The position numbers and the translations under genes were made by a program. The notes under the pieces were generated by a model. That model searched no databases, was not told the DNA's origin, and saw only the letters and a list, made by a program, of their open reading frames with translations. DNA of 64,000 nucleotides from positions 1-64,000 of the forward strand of contig JAFXWC010000015.1 in assembly GCA_017534445.1 (NCBI GenBank), in the 5' to 3' direction. Positions 25,712 through 49,253 of this stretch are shown here, one piece after another. Source of the stretch: Treponema sp. Its GTDB lineage: Bacteria; Spirochaetota; Spirochaetia; Treponematales; Treponemataceae. Each line of letters begins with the position of its first letter. Positions within the stretch are counted from its first letter, which is position 1.

Positions 25712-26274
25712 CGCTGAACGGAACCTTCCTTTATCTTGCTGTAGATTGCGTCCCCGGTAAGAGTGCGGACTATTTCCATGGAAAATTCCTCCGCAGCACC
25801 GGGGCCTCTTCCTGTAATAAGGTTTCCATCATGAATAAAGGCTTCGTCCCTGTAGGTGGCAATAAATTCTGCCGCCTCTTCCCTCATTCCAGGGTAGCAA
25901 GTCCAGGCTTTTCCTTTTAGCGCACCAGTCTTGGGAAGCACAACCTTAGGAGCCGCACATATTGCGCATACAAGCTTGCCCGCATCATTCATCTGTCTTA
26001 TAAAATCAACCGCCGCACGGCAATCTGCAATATTCGTAGTTCCAGGCATTCCACCGGGCACAACAACGGCATCCGGCAGCTCTTCCCCGGCAGAAAGGTA
26101 GGATTCAAGGGTCATGTCTGCGTTTATGCTAACACCATGAGCAGCCGTAACCGTACGTGACTGACCAATGGCAACAAAATGCACCTGAACAGCAGCCCTG
26201 CGCAAATAGTCAACAGGGGTAATCACCTCTATTTCCTCAGTTCCATCCGCAATAAAAACAACAGCTTTTTTCAT
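25708..26274 (-). CDS. DJ-1/PfpI family protein
   Basis: 188 residues. The family landmarks are present: KKAVVFIADGTEEIEVITPV with the conserved Glu, DAVVVPGGMPGT, and the nucleophile elbow KLVCAICAAPKVV, whose first cysteine after VCAI is the reactive one. YajL/DJ-1 members act in oxidative-stress protection or as glyoxalase/deglycase enzymes. Start at 26274 is chosen for its GGAGG site; a longer frame up to 26340 begins inside the divergent promoter region. Confidence 0.92.
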   Translation of the reverse strand: MKKAVVFIADGTEEIEVITPVDYLRRAAVQVHFVAIGQSRTVTAAHGVSINADMTLESYLSAGEELPDAVVVPGGMPGTTNIADCRAAVDFIRQMNDAGKLVCAICAAPKVVLPKTGALKGKAWTCYPGMREEAAEFIATYRDEAFIHDGNLITGRGPGAAEEFSMEIVRTLTGDAIYSKIKEGSVQR

Positions 26275-26326
26275 AACTTCCTCCAAAAGCGATTTCCTTT
26301 TTACTATACATACCTTGAAATATACC

Positions 26327-26355
26327 TTGAAATTATACACTTAATAAAGTAAAAT
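26327..26355 (+). promoter_or_regulatory. Leaderless promoter of the response regulator gene
   Basis: -35 TTGAAA (26327-26332), 17 bp, -10 TAAAAT (26350-26355), 7 nt to ATG 26363. An upstream in-frame ATG at 26354 lies within the -10 box and cannot be the start of a transcript made here. Confidence 0.7.
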
Positions 26356-26362
26356 GGATAGT

Positions 26363-27607
26363 ATGAAGAAGGTATTGGTAATAGATGCATCTCCCATGTT
26401 CCGCGAATTTCTTAAGGAAAAACTCGTTGCAGAGCAGGTGAATGTTGAATATGCGGTGGGAAACCGCGATGCATATACAAAAATGATAACAACTCTTCCC
26501 GATTTGATTATCATTGATGTAGAAAGCGACATAAGCTCACTTCAGGATTTCTTGCTAAAGAAATATGACGACCCTAACGCTAAAAAAATACCTATTATCA
26601 TAAGCGGCCCGGACATTCCGCGCAACCATGTTGCAACACTGGCCCAGTTTGCCGTAGTCAAATATTTTACCAAGCCTATAAAATTCGACATCTTCTTTGA
26701 GTCAATCGGAAAAATCCTCAAGATGAGCTTCTCGCTTGACTCTACCCCCAGCATCATGGAAATGCATGTTAACGGCCTTATTGTCTTTACGGAAATTGCG
26801 CTAGGCCTTAACAGGGAAAAGCTTTACCTCCTAAAATACCGCCTTCAGGAACTTTTGGACAAAAACAAGATTAACGAGCCAAAAATCATCATCATGATGA
26901 CGAACATAAAGCTCACCTTTATAGACGGCTCAAACTTGGAAGTCCTAATAGACAACATTCTGGAAGACAAACGCATAAAGCCAAAGAACGTAAAGATTCT
27001 TTCTTTCGACACCTTTACAAAGGAATTGGTCAAGGGCCACCCCCTCTACAAGGACATAGAAGTTTCCGACAACATGAACGACATTATCAACTCCATGGTT
27101 GATGCAAGCCAGGGCGAAAGCGTTAATGAAATCGTTTCGGAAAGAATTCTTTCTGTAGATGACCACAGCACCCAGGAATCTTCCATAGAAATGCGCTTTA
27201 TGAATGACAATGCCGAAGGTGTCATTTCTGAGCAGGATTCCGGCAACGTTCTAAAAGTGGCAATTGTAGACGACGACGTTGTTATCCGCCGCCTCTTGGA
27301 AAAAGCCTTTGCTGGAGTAAGTGCAAAATCGGTTCTTTTTTCAAACGGCGTAGACTTTATGCACGCAATAGAAGACCAGGAATTTGACCTTGTTATACTG
27401 GACATTTATATCCCGGACATCAACGGTTTTGACATTCTCCGTACCCTTCAGCGTGAAAATTTCAAGGCCCCGATTCTTATTTATTCTCAGGCAACAATGC
27501 GCGATGCCGTAGTAAAGTCGCTAAGTCTTGGCGCAAAAGGCTATCTGATAAAGCCTCAGAAAGCTGACGTTATCGTGCAAAAGGCAATGGAAGTCCTTCA
27601 CTCATAA
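26363..27607 (+). CDS. Two-receiver response regulator without DNA-binding output
   Basis: 414 residues. Residues ~1-115 form a degenerate receiver (KKVLVIDASPMFREFLKE, phospho-Asp candidate in LIIIDVES, and a switch lysine in YFTKPIKF). The middle ~120-240 resembles a STAS-like or PatA-like module (IIIMMTNIKLTFIDGSNLEV). Residues ~290-414 form a full receiver (VAIVDDDVVIRRLLEKA, VILDIYIPDINGFD, YLIKPQK). No DNA-binding or enzymatic output is visible, so it probably relays phosphate or docks on partners. It lies 33 nt before the hybrid kinase at 27641, its likely partner. Confidence 0.85.
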   Translation: MKKVLVIDASPMFREFLKEKLVAEQVNVEYAVGNRDAYTKMITTLPDLIIIDVESDISSLQDFLLKKYDDPNAKKIPIIISGPDIPRNHVATLAQFAVVKYFTKPIKFDIFFESIGKILKMSFSLDSTPSIMEMHVNGLIVFTEIALGLNREKLYLLKYRLQELLDKNKINEPKIIIMMTNIKLTFIDGSNLEVLIDNILEDKRIKPKNVKILSFDTFTKELVKGHPLYKDIEVSDNMNDIINSMVDASQGESVNEIVSERILSVDDHSTQESSIEMRFMNDNAEGVISEQDSGNVLKVAIVDDDVVIRRLLEKAFAGVSAKSVLFSNGVDFMHAIEDQEFDLVILDIYIPDINGFDILRTLQRENFKAPILIYSQATMRDAVVKSLSLGAKGYLIKPQKADVIVQKAMEVLHS

Positions 27608-27640
27608 GGCTGCCATATTTGCCCTCGCAGGGGGATTCTT

Positions 27641-29638
27641 GTGGAAGTTAATTCAATAGACGCAGGCTCTAGGTTTTTGGCAAGCACCCTTCATGAAGTG
27701 CGCACCCCAATCCAGACAATAATCAGTACGGTAGAATTGCTTGGTGAAACTTCGCTGGACAAAGAGCAGAATGAATATGTCCATCAGATTGAATTCAGCG
27801 CAAACGTACTGCTTCAGCTTGCAAACGACATCCTTGACTATACAAAAATCCACTCCGGCGACTTTAAGCTTGAATACATCCCCTTTGACGTTGTTGAGCT
27901 TACGGAACACGTCGTTGACTTGGTCAGCATAGAAGCCATCAACAAGGGCCTTGAAATTGTTACGGACATAGACCACACCTTCCCCAAAATCATCATGGGC
28001 GACCCTACCCGCCTTCAGCAAGTAATACTGAATCTTGTAAAAAATGCCGTTAAGTTTACGGAAAAAGGCTACGTGGTTGTCCGCGTATATTGCCGCGACG
28101 AAAAGCTTTACTTTGAAATAATAGACAGCGGTATTGGCATTCCAAAAGAAAAACAGGAGCTTGTATTTAACAATTTCTACCAGGTGGACGCAAGCACAAC
28201 CCGAAAGTACGGCGGCTCTGGAATGGGCCTTGCAATTTGTAAAAACCTTGTAGACATAATGAAAGGCCAAATTGGCGTAAAGGACAATCCGGCAGGAGGC
28301 TCTATCTTCTGGTTCAGCATACCCATGCAGGTTTCCCAGATAGACGCCCAGCTGGAAGAATTCACACCGCACCTTACCATCCCTGAACACACGAAAATCC
28401 TTCTTGTAGACGACAATGAACTTGCACTTGCAGCCCTTGCCACCAAGATAAAAAACCTTGGCATAAGCCAAATAGACACTGCCCTTTCCGGCGAACAGGC
28501 CTTGGAAAAAATCTCCGCAGCCGCAAAGGAAAAGCACCCCTACACAGTGGTCTTTGTTGACATGATTATGCCCAAGATGGACGGCTGGCGCTTTGCATCA
28601 GAGGTAACGAGCAGCCTTATCACCAACAAGCTAAAAATGTACCTTGTTGTTCCAGAAGGACAGATGGGCAAAGATGCCAAGATGAAAATCCTTGACTGGT
28701 TCAACGGCTACCTTTACAAACCGGTAAAAAGAAAGCAGCTCTTTACCCTTTTGAACGAAGCCTTTACCAGCCTGCCAAACATCTATCCGGTAGAAATGGA
28801 AGCAATCAAAAACATAAACCTTGCCCCAACCAACCTGGTGCCGCTCATAGAAGAAAACGAAATTGCCAGAAACTGCAAGGTTCTTGTTGCAGAAGACCAT
28901 CCGGTAAACCGCAAGCTCATAGAAACCTTCCTAAGAAAATTCGGTGCTACAGTTTATTCTGCAGAAGACGGTGCCGCCGCAGTAAAAATGATAGAAAAGC
29001 ATCCCGAAACCGACCTGATTTTCATGGACATACTAATGCCGGTAAAGAGCGGAATAGATGCCACAGTTGAACTACGCGCAAAGAACTACAACGGAATAAT
29101 CATTGCCTGCACCGCAAACAACGACCCCAACGACTTTAAGACTTACCGGGAACTTGGCATAAACGACATCCTCGTAAAACCCTTCAAAAAAGACGGAGTG
29201 CGCGGAATGTTGGAAAAATGGACGGCAGTTCTTACAATCCCGGAAGCAAAGGAAATAGTTTCCCTTACAGAAGTAAACAATCTTGCCAGCGACAAATGGG
29301 ACATAAGCGACTTTATGGACACCGTAGGCGGAGACGAAGAGCTTGCCGTTAGCCTTATGAATGACTTCATCAAGCAGACGGAAGAAATCCTTGCCGAACT
29401 AAGGCCGGAGCTTAAGAATCCAGAGAAGGACTTTAAAAAGCTGGACGAACTTTCCCACAAGCTAAAGGGCAGCTGCGGAACACTCAGCATAAGCAGCCTT
29501 TATGCCCCCGCAAAAAAAATGAACGAAGCCGCAAGAAAAGACGATTTTGTCACCGTTGAAGCTTCGGAAGTCGAATTTGAACTTGCATTTATTGAATTTA
29601 AAAATCTTGAAAAAAAATGGTCGGATTCACTAAAATGA
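27641..29638 (+). CDS. Hybrid sensor histidine kinase with two receivers and Hpt
   Basis: 665 residues, no sensor or membrane segment. Order: HisKA with phospho-His18 ([12 protein letters not shown]), HATPase (N-box [34 protein letters not shown]), receiver 1 (~245-370, [26 protein letters not shown]), receiver 2 (~410-530, [31 protein letters not shown]) and a C-terminal Hpt domain (~550-660, [13 protein letters not shown]). A complete internal phosphorelay in one soluble protein, so its input must be an intracellular signal or another protein. Starts at GTG with an AGGGGG site. Its stop overlaps the ATG of the PHP phosphatase gene. Confidence 0.92.
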
Positions 29639-30483
29639 AAAAAACAAACTATCACACCCATTCAACCTTTTGCGACGGAAAAAACACCCCTGAGCAGATA
29701 GTTCAGATTGCCCTGCAAAAAGGTTTTGATGCGCTGGGATTCAGCTCCCATTCCATGTACCCCTTTTCATCAGACTGGCACCTCCAGTCGCGGGAACATT
29801 CAGCATACGCAAAAGAAATACACCGCCTAGGCAAAGAATACAGTGACCGCATTCAAGTAAAGCTTGGCTTTGAAGCTGATTTCATAGAAGGCGTTTGCGC
29901 ACCCAAGATGGACCGCTTTGCAGAATTTGACCCCGACTATCTTATAGGCGCGGTTCATTATGTTCCTGGCAAGAAGGGATTCATAGAAGCAGACGGAAGA
30001 GAAGCAGATGTCCTAGGGGGAATAAAAAACTACTTTGACGGAGACGCAAAAAAAGCCGTGCAGGAGTACTTTTACCTTGAGCGGCAAATGCTAAAAACCT
30101 GCGACTTTACGATAATTGCCCATTGCGACTTAATCAAAAAACAGAACGGTCCAAAGGTAGCAGCCCCCCTTTTTGACGAAAAAAGTGAGTGGTACAAAAA
30201 AGAGATAGCCCTTTTGGCTGATGAAATTGCAAGCGCAGGCGTAGTTGCAGAAGTAAACGTAGGCGGAATGGCACGCGGCTACATGGCCACCTCCTTCCCC
30301 CACGGAGAACTCCTTTCGCTTTTGATACAAAAAAATGTACCCCTAACCCTAAGCTCCGACTCCCATTCAGCAGAAACCTTGGATTTTGCCTTTGACGAAA
30401 CAATTCAAATGCTAAAAAATGCTGGCTGCAAAGAACTTGCTTTTATAGAAGGAAAAAACTCGTTCAAAATGCAGCCCCTCTGA
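29635..30483 (+). CDS. PHP-domain histidinol-phosphatase family protein
   Basis: 282 residues. The PHP metal site opens with NYHTHSTFCDGKNTPEQIV, with further ligands in LGFSSHSMYPF, LGFEADFIEG, YLIGAVHYV, TIIAHCDLIKK and SSDSHSAE. This is the layout of HisK-type histidinol-phosphatases (histidine synthesis). No other his gene is in the window, and it overlaps the hybrid kinase by four bases (ATGA), so a role in signalling rather than histidine synthesis is possible. Starts at 29635; an upstream in-frame start lies inside the kinase gene. Confidence 0.85.
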   Translation: MKKTNYHTHSTFCDGKNTPEQIVQIALQKGFDALGFSSHSMYPFSSDWHLQSREHSAYAKEIHRLGKEYSDRIQVKLGFEADFIEGVCAPKMDRFAEFDPDYLIGAVHYVPGKKGFIEADGREADVLGGIKNYFDGDAKKAVQEYFYLERQMLKTCDFTIIAHCDLIKKQNGPKVAAPLFDEKSEWYKKEIALLADEIASAGVVAEVNVGGMARGYMATSFPHGELLSLLIQKNVPLTLSSDSHSAETLDFAFDETIQMLKNAGCKELAFIEGKNSFKMQPL

Positions 30484-30491
30484 TGTAATTT

Positions 30492-30848
30492 CTACCTGTT
30501 GCGTCTTTCTTCCGCGGCCTGGCAGTCAAGACAGAGCATTGCATAAGGCATAGCTTCAAGACGGCCTTCGTTAATGTCCTCTCCGCAGTTCTGACAAACA
30601 CCGTAAGTACCCTTTGTAATGCGCTCAAGAGCCGAATTAATCTGCTCCAGACGGCGCATGTCCTCATCGCCAAGCTTAAGTGCCAAATTACCGTCTATTC
30701 TGTCGGATGCAAGGTCTGCCTCGTCACCCGGTTCTGCTGCTTCTACAAGGTTGGAAAGCTGTTCATTGCGTCCTTTTAAAGTGTCCATTATTTCCTGGCG
30801 CTTTGCAAGGAGCATTTTTTTCTGACTTTCTATAAAGCTTTTCTTCAT
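30492..30848 (-). CDS. DksA/TraR-type C4 zinc-finger transcription factor
   Basis: 118 residues. A coiled-coil half (SFIESQKKMLLAKRQEIMDT, with the acidic tip around EPGDEADLASDRIDGN) is followed by a C4 zinc finger: GVCQNCGEDINEGRLEAMPY then MLCLDCQ. DksA-type proteins insert into the RNA polymerase secondary channel and act with ppGpp. The frame is open 150 nt further upstream but the ATG at 30848 has an AAGGTG ribosome site and gives the usual length. Divergent from infA. Confidence 0.9.
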   Translation of the reverse strand: MKKSFIESQKKMLLAKRQEIMDTLKGRNEQLSNLVEAAEPGDEADLASDRIDGNLALKLGDEDMRRLEQINSALERITKGTYGVCQNCGEDINEGRLEAMPYAMLCLDCQAAEERRNR

Positions 30849-30939
30849 ACTATTCACCTTTATTGACAATTTATGGTTTTTTGTACATACTAGTATACAA
30901 ACAAATTCAGCAAAAGGCAAATAAATTCTGGAGGAATTT

Positions 30940-31161
30940 GTGGCTAATAAAGATGACGCTATAGAAGTTGAAGGTATTGTAAAAGAAGCCCTTCCTAACA
31001 CAATGTTCCGTGTTGAACTGCAGAATCAGCACGTTATTCTTGCACATTTGAGCGGCAAGATGCGCAAACACTACATCCGCATTGTTCCGGGTGACAGCGT
31101 AAAAGTAGAACTTTCCCCCTACGACCTGAACCGTGGCCGCATTATTTTCCGCGAACGCTAA
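30940..31161 (+). CDS. infA: Translation initiation factor IF-1
   Basis: 73 residues with GTG start and a strong GGAGG site. One OB-fold: [55 protein letters not shown], nearly the textbook IF-1 sequence and length. It is a single gene here, not in the usual ribosomal-protein cluster, as is common in spirochaetes (from memory). Confidence 0.97.
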
Positions 31162-31178
31162 TAAATAACAAGATTAAC

Positions 31179-31814
31179 TTACTTTTTTTCAGGTTGGAAA
31201 ATATATTTTAACGACTTGAAAACATCTTTAATCCCCTGAACAAGAAAAACTACCGCAAGAATGTTCAGCGGGAAGAAAAGAACTATAATCCTTAGCACAA
31301 AAAACGCCACGACAGCCTGCAAAGCACCCTTAAAAAGCATGGCAAAACCATCTTTGCGCGACAAGTCCTGCTTATTATATCCAGACGACCACTTGAACGA
31401 ATTTGGATTTTGCTTTGAACTGCCGCTTCTTGTTGCCCTAAAAAACTCCTCAAAGGGGTCAAAGCCGTTGCTATAGAAATTCTCCTCTCCGTAACCATCC
31501 GGGCCATGATTGTAGCCGCCGTAAGAATTCCCGGTTCCATAAAAGCCCCAGTTTCCATAAGCCCTACCGCTTCCCTGGCTATAACCGGAAGAAGAACTCT
31601 GAGAAGATGAACCATACATGTCGTACTGCCTGCGCTTGTCCTCGTCCCCAAGAACGGAATAAGCCGCGTTCACCTGCTTAAATTTTTCCTCCGCGACTTT
31701 ATCCCCGGCATTTCTGTCCGGATGATACTTGAATGCGAGTGTCCTATATGCCTTTTTAATCTCATCCGCAGAGGCGCTCTTTGAAACGCCCAACACCGAA
31801 TATAAATCGTCCAT
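31179..31814 (-). CDS. DnaJ-domain membrane protein
   Basis: 211 residues. The N-terminal J-domain ([40 protein letters not shown] with the HPD tripeptide) can stimulate a DnaK ATPase. A Gly/Ser/Tyr-rich linker (~70-125) follows, then a hydrophobic C-terminal region ([20 protein letters not shown] and following) predicting one or two membrane segments. It lacks the zinc-finger and client-binding domains of full DnaJ, so it probably recruits DnaK to the membrane. Leaderless promoter upstream. Confidence 0.88.
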
Positions 31815-31821
31815 CTCTTAA

Positions 31822-31850
31822 AAAATAATCAAAAATCAACAAAATTACAA
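31822..31850 (-). promoter_or_regulatory. Leaderless promoter of the DnaJ-like gene
   Basis: Minus strand: -35 TTGTAA (31845-31850), 17 bp, -10 TATTTT (31822-31827), 7 nt to ATG at 31814. The -10 is AT-run-like, so this is the weakest of the set. Confidence 0.5.
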
Positions 31851-31874
31851 GGTTTTTCTTTGGATTTTTCTTTT

Positions 31875-32017
31875 GCGGCACTTTTAAATTTTAAGCGCAT
31901 ATTCGTTCCGCTAACCGAATATGCCCATTATGTGGCGCTTGCGGGGTTCCAGCCCTCCGGCCTCCATTGCTATCGCAACGAGTTGCAAGCAACTCGCCCC
32001 TCCAGTGCCTGCCGTGC
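31875..32017 (-). repeat. Dispersed intergenic element, full-length copy beside the cas9 break
   Basis: Read on the minus strand: GCACGGCAGGCACTGGAG, a perfect GAGTTGC-AA-GCAACTC palindrome, CGTTGCGATAGCAATGGAGG, GGAACCCCGCAAGCGCCAC and the closing AAAGTGCCGC. Nearly identical over its first ~50 bases to 49109-49253. It lies about 50 bases beyond the point where Cas9 similarity stops. Confidence 0.8.
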
Positions 32018-32069
32018 TCTCTTTTGCAAACAGTTCCTTTCACAAAAACTACCCCTGCAAAACAATGTA

Positions 32070-32105
32070 GTGGTTTGATTTCTTTTTTTGATGTATAATA
32101 ATAAG
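32070..32105 (+). repeat. Putative single degenerate CRISPR repeat
   Basis: 36 bases starting GTGGTTTGATTTCTT (32070-32084). These 15 bases are complementary to the tracrRNA anti-repeat at 32263-32277 with a single G-U pair. Its distal part ATGTATAATAATAAG (32091-32105) also resembles, with indels, the complement of 32234-32248. No second copy or spacer array is seen, so this would be one repeat left behind after deletion. Confidence 0.55.
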
Positions 32106-32194
32106 ATACCGCACTTTTCAATTTTTTGTGCGCTTTCATCAACAATTCCCCAACCAATTGAATTAGTACCAATATCAAGTCCCAAAGTTTTCAT
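32105..32194 (-). pseudogene. cas9: 5' remnant of cas9 (RuvC-I motif only)
   Basis: ATG at 32194 with a GAGG ribosome site 8 nt upstream starts a 30-residue Cas9 N-terminus: MKTLGLDIGTNSIGWGIVDE, including the RuvC-I catalytic Asp in GLDIGTNSIGW, followed by SAQKIEKCGI. Similarity to Cas9 ends at about 32105; after that the frame runs through the repeat-like segment and a dispersed element and encodes nothing recognisable. More than 95% of a normal cas9 (1000-1400 residues) is missing, with no cas1, cas2 or csn2 in the window. The intact start region suggests a recent deletion. Confidence 0.85.
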
Positions 32195-32233
32195 AAAAAG
32201 CCCTCGATGAAAAAAACTAAAACTATATTGCAA

Positions 32234-32340
32234 TTACTATTATAACATGATATTCTGAATTTAAGAAATCAAATCACAATAAGGCCTTGTGCCGAAGTCA
32301 TTTGACTACAGCCCTGCGTACTCCGTGGGGCTATTTTTAT
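32234..32340 (+). ncRNA. tracrRNA-like RNA (anti-repeat, nexus, terminator hairpin)
   Basis: Divergent from the cas9 remnant. Anti-repeat lower part AAGAAATCAAATCAC (32263-32277) with an upper part at 32234-32248; then the nexus AAGGCCTTGTGCCG (32281-32294), very like the AAGGC...GCCG nexus of S. thermophilus CRISPR1 and T. denticola tracrRNAs; a small GTCATTTGAC hairpin (32297-32306); and a terminator with a 9-bp stem AGCCCTGCG/CGTGGGGCT (32310-32332, two G-U pairs) followed by a T run. All parts are intact and in the right order. Whether it is still transcribed is unknown; its promoter would overlap the cas9 promoter region and is not clear. Exact 5' end uncertain. Confidence 0.82.
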
Positions 32341-32361
32341 ATTTAATATACTTCTATAAAT

Positions 32362-32841
32362 ATGCAGCACCCCATCCCGCCAGTGTACGACAGCAATTCA
32401 AAAATTCTCATCTTAGGGTCATTTCCTTCGGTTAAGTCCAGGGAGGTTGGATTTTTCTATGGGCATCCGCAGAACCGTTTTTGGAAAGTTTTGGCTACTT
32501 TGCTCAAAGACAGAGTTCCCCTTACCGTAGAAGAAAAACGCGCATTTCTTCTTTTGCACGGCATTGCAGTCTGGGACGTGATTGCTTCTTGCAGCATAAC
32601 AGGTTCAAGCGACGCAAGCATAAAAGACGTTGTGCCAAACGACATTTCGCACATTCTTTCTGCCGCACAAGTTGCCCAAGTTTTCACCAACGGAAAAACA
32701 GCGGACTCTCTCTACAAAAAATACCTGCTGCCACAAACAAAGCGGGAATCAATTTGCCTTCCTTCAACAAGTCCCGCAAACGCCGCATGGACTTTTGAAA
32801 AACTTTGCGCAGAATGGAAAAGCATTATGAGTTTTATTTAA
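32362..32841 (+). CDS. DNA-deoxyinosine (hypoxanthine-DNA) glycosylase, UDG superfamily
   Basis: 159 residues. Removes hypoxanthine and possibly other deaminated bases from DNA. The UDG-superfamily family-6 signature is clear: KILILGSFPSVKSREVGFFY, GHPQNRFWKVLATLL, AVWDVIASCSITGSSDASI with the catalytic-site Asn further on (VPNDISHIL), and the C-terminal LPSTSPANAAW. Follows the tracrRNA terminator by 20 nt. No ribosome site is evident. Overlaps the converging regulator gene by 4 nt. Confidence 0.87.
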   Translation: MQHPIPPVYDSNSKILILGSFPSVKSREVGFFYGHPQNRFWKVLATLLKDRVPLTVEEKRAFLLLHGIAVWDVIASCSITGSSDASIKDVVPNDISHILSAAQVAQVFTNGKTADSLYKKYLLPQTKRESICLPSTSPANAAWTFEKLCAEWKSIMSFI

Positions 32842-33485
32842 TTGCAAAGAGAGTCTGTACTTTTGTTCTCTTTTTCCACTACTTTTTTCTGCCAAGTACG
32901 CTTTCCACATTTAGGACACTTCATCCATCTGGTGCGGCTCATGTGAGGGGCAAAAAGAACTGCAGCATAAGTGGGTTTGTAGCGGTGGGAGCAAGAGGCA
33001 CATTCGTAGTAGCCGGCAGTCTGTTCTATCCACACGCCAACAAGAGCGGCACAAAGCACAAGCAAAACTCCGCCACCAATCAGCAGGTACGAAAGCAATT
33101 TTGCGTTATAGTGTTTTGCAACAAATTCACCTGCCAGGCACAAGATTAAAAAGCCCGCAAGCGAAATTCCTACCAAAAACCATTCCAGCTTAAGAAGTTT
33201 TTTGGTCTGCAGCTCGTTTTCTTTTTTGAGGGCAATGATGTTGGCTTCTGATTCTTTGCTAAGATTTTCCATGGCAATACGTTCTCCTTTTAAAAGTTCA
33301 TTTACATTTATAGAAAGAAGTGTGCATAGCTCCAGCATTATAGAAGCATCCGGCAAGGAATTTCCCGTCTCCCACTTGGAAACAGCCCTGTCCGTAATTC
33401 CAAATTTTTCTGCAAGCTGTGCCTGGGTCAAATTCTTTTCTTTGCGGCACTGCGCAATGAATTTTCCAATTTTTACCATATCCAT
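32838..33485 (-). CDS. XRE-type regulator with membrane helices and zinc ribbon
   Basis: 215 residues. The N-terminal HTH_3 domain (KIGKFIAQCRKEKNLTQAQL, FGITDRAVSKWETGNSLPD) is followed by a coiled linker, two membrane segments (WFLVGISLAGFLILCLAG; LLSYLLIGGGVLLVLCAALV) and a CxxC...CxxC zinc ribbon (YECASCSHRY, MKCPKCGKR). A membrane-tethered one-component regulator. Start at 33485 is set by an AAAGGAG site; a longer frame to 33536 starts in non-coding sequence. Confidence 0.85.
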   Translation of the reverse strand: MDMVKIGKFIAQCRKEKNLTQAQLAEKFGITDRAVSKWETGNSLPDASIMLELCTLLSINVNELLKGERIAMENLSKESEANIIALKKENELQTKKLLKLEWFLVGISLAGFLILCLAGEFVAKHYNAKLLSYLLIGGGVLLVLCAALVGVWIEQTAGYYECASCSHRYKPTYAAVLFAPHMSRTRWMKCPKCGKRTWQKKVVEKENKSTDSLCN

Positions 33486-33593
33486 AAGGAACTCCTTTCT
33501 GGTCAAATAATAGTGCCGTATAAGAAAAATGTACACGAACCATTGGTTGAGTTTAGCAAATTTATATTTTTACAAGTTCCAAAGGAAATCATA

Positions 33594-33953
33594 TTAATTC
33601 CACTTTGCCCACACGTCAGGTGCGTAGCCAACAGCGGCATCCGTTTTTCCGTTGCGGCAAATTGGCTGGGCTAAAAGCATGGGGTTTTCCAAAAGCTTGT
33701 CTTCTTTTTCGCTGTCGTCAAGATAAGCAAACGAGGCGTAGTCTTTGCCCTTTTTGTCTGCCAGCAATTCTACAGCCAAAGCCCTGCTGCCTTCACGCTT
33801 TGCAAGGGATAAAATTATGCTTTCTAGTTCACCCTTGGAAATACCCTTTTCCTTAATGTCTACTTTCTGGAAGGGAATGCGCCTTTCGCTAAAATAACGC
33901 TCCGCCTTTTTTGTGTCAAAAGATTTTGAAGTGCCGAATATTTGGATTGCCAT
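33594..33953 (-). CDS. ArsC/Spx-fold protein lacking catalytic cysteines
   Basis: 119 residues of the ArsC/Spx thioredoxin-like fold (MAIQIFGTSKSFDTKKAERY, ERRIPFQKVDIKEKGISKGE, LLAQPICRNGKTDAAVGYAP). The CxxxxCxK site of arsenate reductases is replaced by GTSKSFDTKK, so no redox-active cysteine remains there. YffB-type function is unknown. Starts 10 nt after the stop of the PNPOx-like gene, in one operon. Confidence 0.82.
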   Translation of the reverse strand: MAIQIFGTSKSFDTKKAERYFSERRIPFQKVDIKEKGISKGELESIILSLAKREGSRALAVELLADKKGKDYASFAYLDDSEKEDKLLENPMLLAQPICRNGKTDAAVGYAPDVWAKWN

Positions 33954-33962
33954 TTTGCTTAC

Positions 33963-34355
33963 CTAAAATTTTACAACCCTTGGGGCTTCCGTAAAGCTAG
34001 AAAAAGTTGCGGTCGCATCTTTAAAATAGAGGACTTCCGTGTTGTCGTCTTCTGCAGAGTACATTGCCTTTAGCGAAGGGTATTTTTCCAGCATGTCTTT
34101 TTTTGGCTCAATCCTGTCATCGCGGACAAGGGTGCCAGAAAGCCTAAGCCAAGTCTTTCCGTTAAAGCAGCAAAGCTCCACCTTTGGGTTTGCCTGAATC
34201 TGCTTGGAAACATCCTTTGACTTTCCGGTCTGAATGTAAAGCTTTCCTTCAAAAATATTGATTGTTCCAAAGGGCCTAACGCGGGGCTGGCCGTCTTCTA
34301 CTGTGGCAAGATAATAAGTTTCACAGGCTTTTATAAAATCGTAAACTGTTTGCAT
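33963..34355 (-). CDS. Pyridoxamine-5'-phosphate-oxidase-like flavin-binding protein
   Basis: 130 residues, split-barrel FMN fold of the PNPOx-like group: YDFIKACETYYLATVEDGQP, RVRPFGTINIFEGKLYIQTG, SKDVSKQIQANPKVELCCFN. These small versions are not the vitamin B6 oxidase but F420- or FMN-binding proteins of loosely known function. An AAGGAG site supports the ATG at 34355. First gene of a two-gene operon with the ArsC-fold protein. Confidence 0.87.
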   Translation of the reverse strand: MQTVYDFIKACETYYLATVEDGQPRVRPFGTINIFEGKLYIQTGKSKDVSKQIQANPKVELCCFNGKTWLRLSGTLVRDDRIEPKKDMLEKYPSLKAMYSAEDDNTEVLYFKDATATFSSFTEAPRVVKF

Positions 34356-34467
34356 ATAATACTCCTTATTTTTTATTCTACCAGACAGACTCAAATTTTT
34401 CAAATATTTTGCTTCTTCTTTTGAACACTATGCAATGTGTTAGCCTCTACAATCGGGCATAAGCTGG

Positions 34468-49078: not shown

Positions 49079-49108
49079 GTTGGCCTCTAATTCCGTATGC
49101 AGAAAAAA

Positions 49109-49253
49109 GCGCGGCAGGCACTGGAGGGGCGAGTTGCTTGCAACTCGTTGCGCTAGCAATGGAGGGGTAGGGCCCCCGGAACCCCGCAAGCGCCACACAC
49201 AAGGCACAAAGGGCAGCAGAAGAAATGCCCAGAAATGCAAATTCAAGTGCCGC
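49109..49253 (+). repeat. Dispersed intergenic element, full-length copy
   Basis: GCGCGGCAGGCACTGGAG at the left end, the GAGTTGC-TT-GCAACTC palindrome variant, CGTTGCGCTAGCAATGGAGG, a GGGCCCCC stretch, GGAACCCCGCAAGCGCCAC, then AAGTGCCGC at the right end. Compare 5389-5491 and 31875-32017. It lies between nth and metK. Confidence 0.8.

Follow-up and report, generated by a model that had tools for sequence, protein, structure and literature searches.

We found that the 0.5-kb interval between a DnaJ-domain gene and a uracil-DNA-glycosylase-superfamily gene, in the 64,000-nucleotide stretch of Treponema sp. DNA analysed here (the window), is a CRISPR remnant. We consider it, with a probability of about 0.86, to be what remains of a type II-C-like CRISPR-Cas locus that recently lost its interior by deletion, with a tracrRNA that should now be inert and would be expected to decay. 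From left to right, the remnant consists of the edge of the CRISPR island with a dispersed repeat, a CRISPR repeat, the bases AAGAT, 29 cas9 codons, an intergenic region, and the tracrRNA (Table 1).

Table 1. Features of the CRISPR remnant and its neighbours (positions in the window).
Feature	Position	Strand	Remark
Left flanking gene, DnaJ-domain protein (PF00226)	31179..31814	-	conserved neighbour
Left CRISPR-island edge	31870..32066	none	in G058 and G087; missing from the empty sites of G117, G172 and G165
Dispersed repeat element within the left island edge	~31931-32031
CRISPR repeat, complete, 36 nt	32067..32102	+	outermost array copy, from comparison with intact arrays; the only repeat at the site
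Part of the repeat pairing with the anti-repeat	32070..32084	+	15 pairs, one G-U
AAGAT, 5 nt, deletion junction	32103..32107	none	spacer residue or filler
cas9 stub, codons 1-29	32108..32194	-	all 29 amino acids as in the intact relative G113
Intergenic region, ribosome-binding site of cas9 and putative divergent promoters	32195..32262		promoters placed by eye
tracrRNA, complete	about 32256-32345	+
Anti-repeat	32263..32280	+	18 pairs with the array repeat of G058
tracrRNA nexus stem-loop GGC-CTTGT-GCC	32283..32293	+
tracrRNA terminator stem, then T-rich tail	32310..32332	+	9 pairs
Right flanking gene, uracil-DNA-glycosylase superfamily (PF03167)	32362..32841	+	conserved neighbour

A preliminary description of this DNA had reported a cas9 start, MKTLGLDIGTNSIGWGIVDESAQKIEKCG, cut short near codon 30 and preceded by its own ribosome-binding site. 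Both observations hold. The stub matches positions 2-30 of TIGR01865 (E 3.3e-6), and the ribosome-binding site lies in the intergenic region, which probably holds divergent promoters for cas9 (-) and the tracrRNA (+). The codon after the 29th is valine in all intact relatives examined, and the next codons in the window come from AAGAT and the repeat. The description had also placed a 15-base repeat fragment just past the cas9 break. Repeat sequence is present there and pairs as claimed, but it is a complete 36-nt repeat rather than a fragment. It has one mismatch to the array repeat of a sister species, GTTGTGGTTTGATTTCTTTTTTTGATGTATAATAAT, and ends in a -10-like sequence, TATAATAAT, as type II-C repeats do; such repeats carry their own promoters (PMC3656092, PMC4607530). 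The repeat is on the plus strand and cas9 on the minus strand. No cas1 or cas2 was found at this site and none of this type elsewhere in the assembly, nor did the assembly hold a displaced copy of the missing cas genes. A profile search with PF16595 (Cas9_PI) was uninformative, since the controls gave no match either. The dispersed element of the left island edge, which is about 100 bp long and holds the palindrome GAGTTGCAAGCAACTC, recurs at 49095-49197 of the window and has 34 matches in the genome.

The tracrRNA had been described as complete and on the opposite strand from cas9, and we reached the same result, finding an anti-repeat, a nexus, a terminator stem and a T-rich tail. The pairing proposed between 32070-32084 and 32263-32277, with one G-U, was also correct, with a computed duplex energy of -19.2 kcal/mol. 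None of the 9,138 36-nt segments of the 64 kb paired better with the anti-repeat than the remnant repeat did. The array repeat of the sister formed 18 pairs with the anti-repeat (-22.3 kcal/mol), and the remnant's repeat 15. The tracrRNA scored E 1.6e-25 against a covariance model built from relatives only, one of which, the sister, is identical in sequence. An Rfam search of the region returned a single match, at chance level (E 4). The sequence features by which type II tracrRNAs are recognized are present: an anti-repeat complementary to the cognate repeat, a nexus hairpin and an intrinsic terminator.

The preliminary description had proposed that a deletion joined an old array repeat to cas9 near codon 30, and had suggested a search for the undeleted form in related strains. 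A search of 196 Treponema genomes gave its best match in G058 (Treponema sp. UBA6988, contig DJYC01000035.1), which is 98% identical over 32108-32345, and this sister species carries an intact locus at the same chromosomal site. One of its contigs (C62) is colinear with 26051-32102 of the window, first repeat included, and from there to its end consists of array. A second (C85) begins in array repeats, is followed by cas2, cas1, an AAA_14/DUF4143 ATPase gene, a full-length cas9 (1,286 aa) and the tracrRNA, and matches 32108-34366 of the window. Both contigs end in the array, and we infer that the locus is continuous across the gap; its gene content and its flanks hardly allow a reading other than an intact locus. 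Neither csn2 nor cas4 was found among the open reading frames of this locus, which has cas1 and cas2. G087 has the same left flank leading into an array. The sister shares with the window the repeat and an identical tracrRNA with its upstream region, but retains the array, cas2, cas1, the ATPase gene and cas9, whereas the window keeps one repeat and 29 codons.

These loci bear out the proposed deletion. Judged from the aligned genomes, they show that the lost DNA, removed in one or a few deletions, extended from just past the first repeat as far as codon 29 of cas9. The ancestral order would have been the left island edge, the array (+), cas2, cas1, the ATPase gene (perhaps) and cas9 (all -), the tracrRNA (+) and the glycosylase gene. 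The ATPase gene lies between cas9 and cas1 in both G058 and G090 (80% identical), and in G025 a 44% identical AAA_14/DUF4143 gene directly follows the cas9 stub (L038:1431-2612, L043:13984-15159 and L049:8810-9979 for the three genes).

In three further relatives (G172, G117 and G165) both flanking genes are present, and the interval that separates them contains no CRISPR DNA. In a small tree of the flanks G172 stands beside G058, yet only G058 has the locus. Because presence of the locus disagrees with the flank tree, exchange among relatives is likely. The empty-site alleles of G117 and G172 (L089, L090 and L091, compared with L038/L039) have a short junction in common, despite the grouping of G172 with G058. 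Another possibility was that a G058-like donor had recently passed on the entire locus; the left island edge, however, has 7-11 differences from G058 per 100 nt, which excludes this for at least that part.

Across 32154-32353 the window and G058 do not differ at all, against a divergence of about 10% in the flanks. The branch leading to the window has 0.073 substitutions per site, so that 200 neutral sites would be expected to collect about 14.5 changes along its full length. That none is seen confines neutral drift to roughly the final fifth of the branch at most (95% limit), a rough figure because only 1.4 kb of flank, most of it coding, went into the branch length. The 29-codon stub has no obvious function and yet is undecayed, so the deletion should be recent, which also accounts for the intact state of the tracrRNA. 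A recent deletion thus appears to be the simplest reading of the undecayed tracrRNA and stub together. The remnant can specify neither a nuclease nor spacer acquisition nor a crRNA. The deletion did not reach the tracrRNA gene, its upstream region or its terminator, which are unchanged. The tracrRNA is probably still transcribable, and both the -10 sequence of the repeat and the tracrRNA promoter may start transcripts. Without a Cas9 partner, the RNA would accumulate weakly, be inert and then decay.

A covariance model search of 200 genomes of the genus identified 16 confident tracrRNAs. Thirteen adjoin cas9, although in G114 the gene runs off the contig end and in G028 it is interrupted. The three without an adjacent cas9 are the window, G025 and G001. 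No cas9 was found in the 85% complete genome of G025 or in the 97% complete genome of G001. These two orphans lie at other chromosomal sites, which indicates separate losses. G025 (UBA4267) has an intact tracrRNA and a 20-codon cas9 stub, in which one codon is changed at an invariant glycine, followed by an ATPase gene. We scaled decay by 38 sites that do not vary among 13 intact relatives, including two outside the genus but within the family. All 38 are preserved in the window and G025, and G001 has lost five, compared with 0-3 for the intact relatives in leave-one-out comparisons. Two of the five G001 changes compensate each other within the nexus stem (C-G to U-A), and the T-run of its terminator is broken. 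We take the G001 tracrRNA to be decaying, as would be expected of the window's own. Another stage of decay is seen in Treponema zioleckii kT3 (G028, L042), where stops split the interrupted cas9 into open frames of 446 and 731 codons, with a 17-repeat array alongside. In G168 (L046), about 11.7 kb separate cas9 from cas1, apparently through an insertion into the locus.

Several alternatives to a relic were weighed. The assembler could have skipped the array and cas genes of a strain whose locus is truly intact. The genome is a draft in 77 contigs with a completeness of 89.8%, and arrays do interrupt assemblies, G058 and G087 being examples, so the junction could be misassembled. Against this, a false join requires a shared word and the similarity at the junction covers only a few bases, the contig is continuous over 176 kb, and the missing cas genes and any other array with the orphan's repeat are nowhere in the assembly; we regard such an artefact as very improbable. 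The preliminary description had suggested instead that the tracrRNA serves a cas9 elsewhere in the genome, and had proposed a search for cas9, cas1, cas2 and arrays. That search did uncover a second, intact type II system on contig C11 (L003:1-6160), with about 20 repeats, cas2, cas1, a 1,110-aa cas9 and its own tracrRNA, but nothing of the orphan's type, and the rest of the genome held no array with the orphan's repeat. The C11 repeat, GTTGCAGGTTGACAGGACAAATTAATCAGTTATAAT, contains a promoter-like sequence (TTGACA-16 nt-TATAAT). An intact system with a Cas9 in the same genome makes it conceivable that the orphan is an extra or regulatory tracrRNA for the C11 Cas9. The two Cas9 types are only about 25% identical, however, and the C11 repeat forms a duplex of -41.9 kcal/mol with its own tracrRNA and of -4.0 kcal/mol with the orphan. 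Since this amounts to no useful pairing, the orphan is not the C11 tracrRNA, and we find a partnership between them scarcely credible. As C11 is the sole other Cas9, with its own tracrRNA and array, the suggestion of service to a cas9 elsewhere fails. A regulatory role like that of tracr-L, also raised in the description, requires a cognate Cas9, and the only Cas9 in the genome is non-cognate. A phage-borne RNA anti-CRISPR was considered as well and rejected: the tracrRNA core pattern had 0 matches in viral contigs, and the chromosomal site is common to the sisters.

After the loss of Cas9, selection could also have kept the orphan as a small RNA that acts alone, for example by binding mRNA through its anti-repeat. 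Its upstream region, anti-repeat, nexus and terminator are all intact, and three of the 16 genomes of the genus with this tracrRNA have orphans. The genome also has two more sites complementary to the anti-repeat core (GTGATTTGATTTC), where about 0.3 would be expected; both lie in coding regions. One of these, on contig C66, is antisense to a likely gene, and the other, on C65 (L086:1501-1513), is a perfect complement in the sense orientation within the coding sequence of an AAA ATPase, which we take to resemble McrB; coincidence is probable for the latter and may explain both. The earlier argument that an undecayed tracrRNA must have been kept for a new purpose is weak, because the functionless cas9 stub is equally undecayed and recency covers both. 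The decaying G001 orphan also speaks against selection, as does the weak expression of tracrRNA and crRNA in Campylobacter jejuni RM1221, which has a premature stop in cas9 (PMC3656092). We therefore view a stand-alone RNA as improbable. A broader version holds that this Treponema tracrRNA family repeatedly outlived Cas9 (in the window, G025 and perhaps G001) because the RNA itself is useful, with losses stopping at the tracrRNA. Some observations do run against a simple relic: two of the three orphans have lost nothing at the 38 invariant sites; the G025 stub is altered at an invariant glycine (NSIGWG to NSIVWG), so that the RNA may outlast the protein there; and both stubs stop by codon 30 of about 1,286, near the tracrRNA but short of it, an outcome that random single deletions would rarely give. 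This last point, with the tracrRNA spared each time, is the best hint of retention, but the pattern is biased by detection, since genomes that also lost the tracrRNA are invisible to a search based on it. We hold repeated survival of a useful RNA to be improbable. Taken together, retention of the tracrRNA for a function seems unlikely from these comparisons, and no result here requires it; we favor a recent relic.

A search of the literature for "orphan tracrRNA" gave no direct precedent under that name, only degraded loci in Campylobacter and mollicutes. In degenerate type II-C loci of C. jejuni such as that of RM1221 (PMC3656092), the tracrRNA likewise outlasts Cas9 and the repeats have their own -10 promoter, but there the locus is kept with a point mutation in cas9, whereas the window's locus is deleted except for its ends. 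The second CRISPR locus of Spiroplasma syrphidicola (PMC6882279) is similar in that an array and a predicted tracrRNA persist without cas genes; it keeps a 9-repeat array, while the window keeps one repeat and a cas9 stub. Autoregulation by tracr-L in type II-A systems (PMC11417352) likewise concerns a tracrRNA and control of the cas9 promoter, but tracr-L acts through Cas9, and the cognate Cas9 is absent from the window's genome. A tracrRNA match by itself is no proof of a functional system. The locus described here forms a before-and-after set, with intact, gutted and empty forms at one site in close relatives and two further orphans of this tracrRNA family at other sites, which makes the fate of a tracrRNA after the loss of Cas9 testable by comparison.
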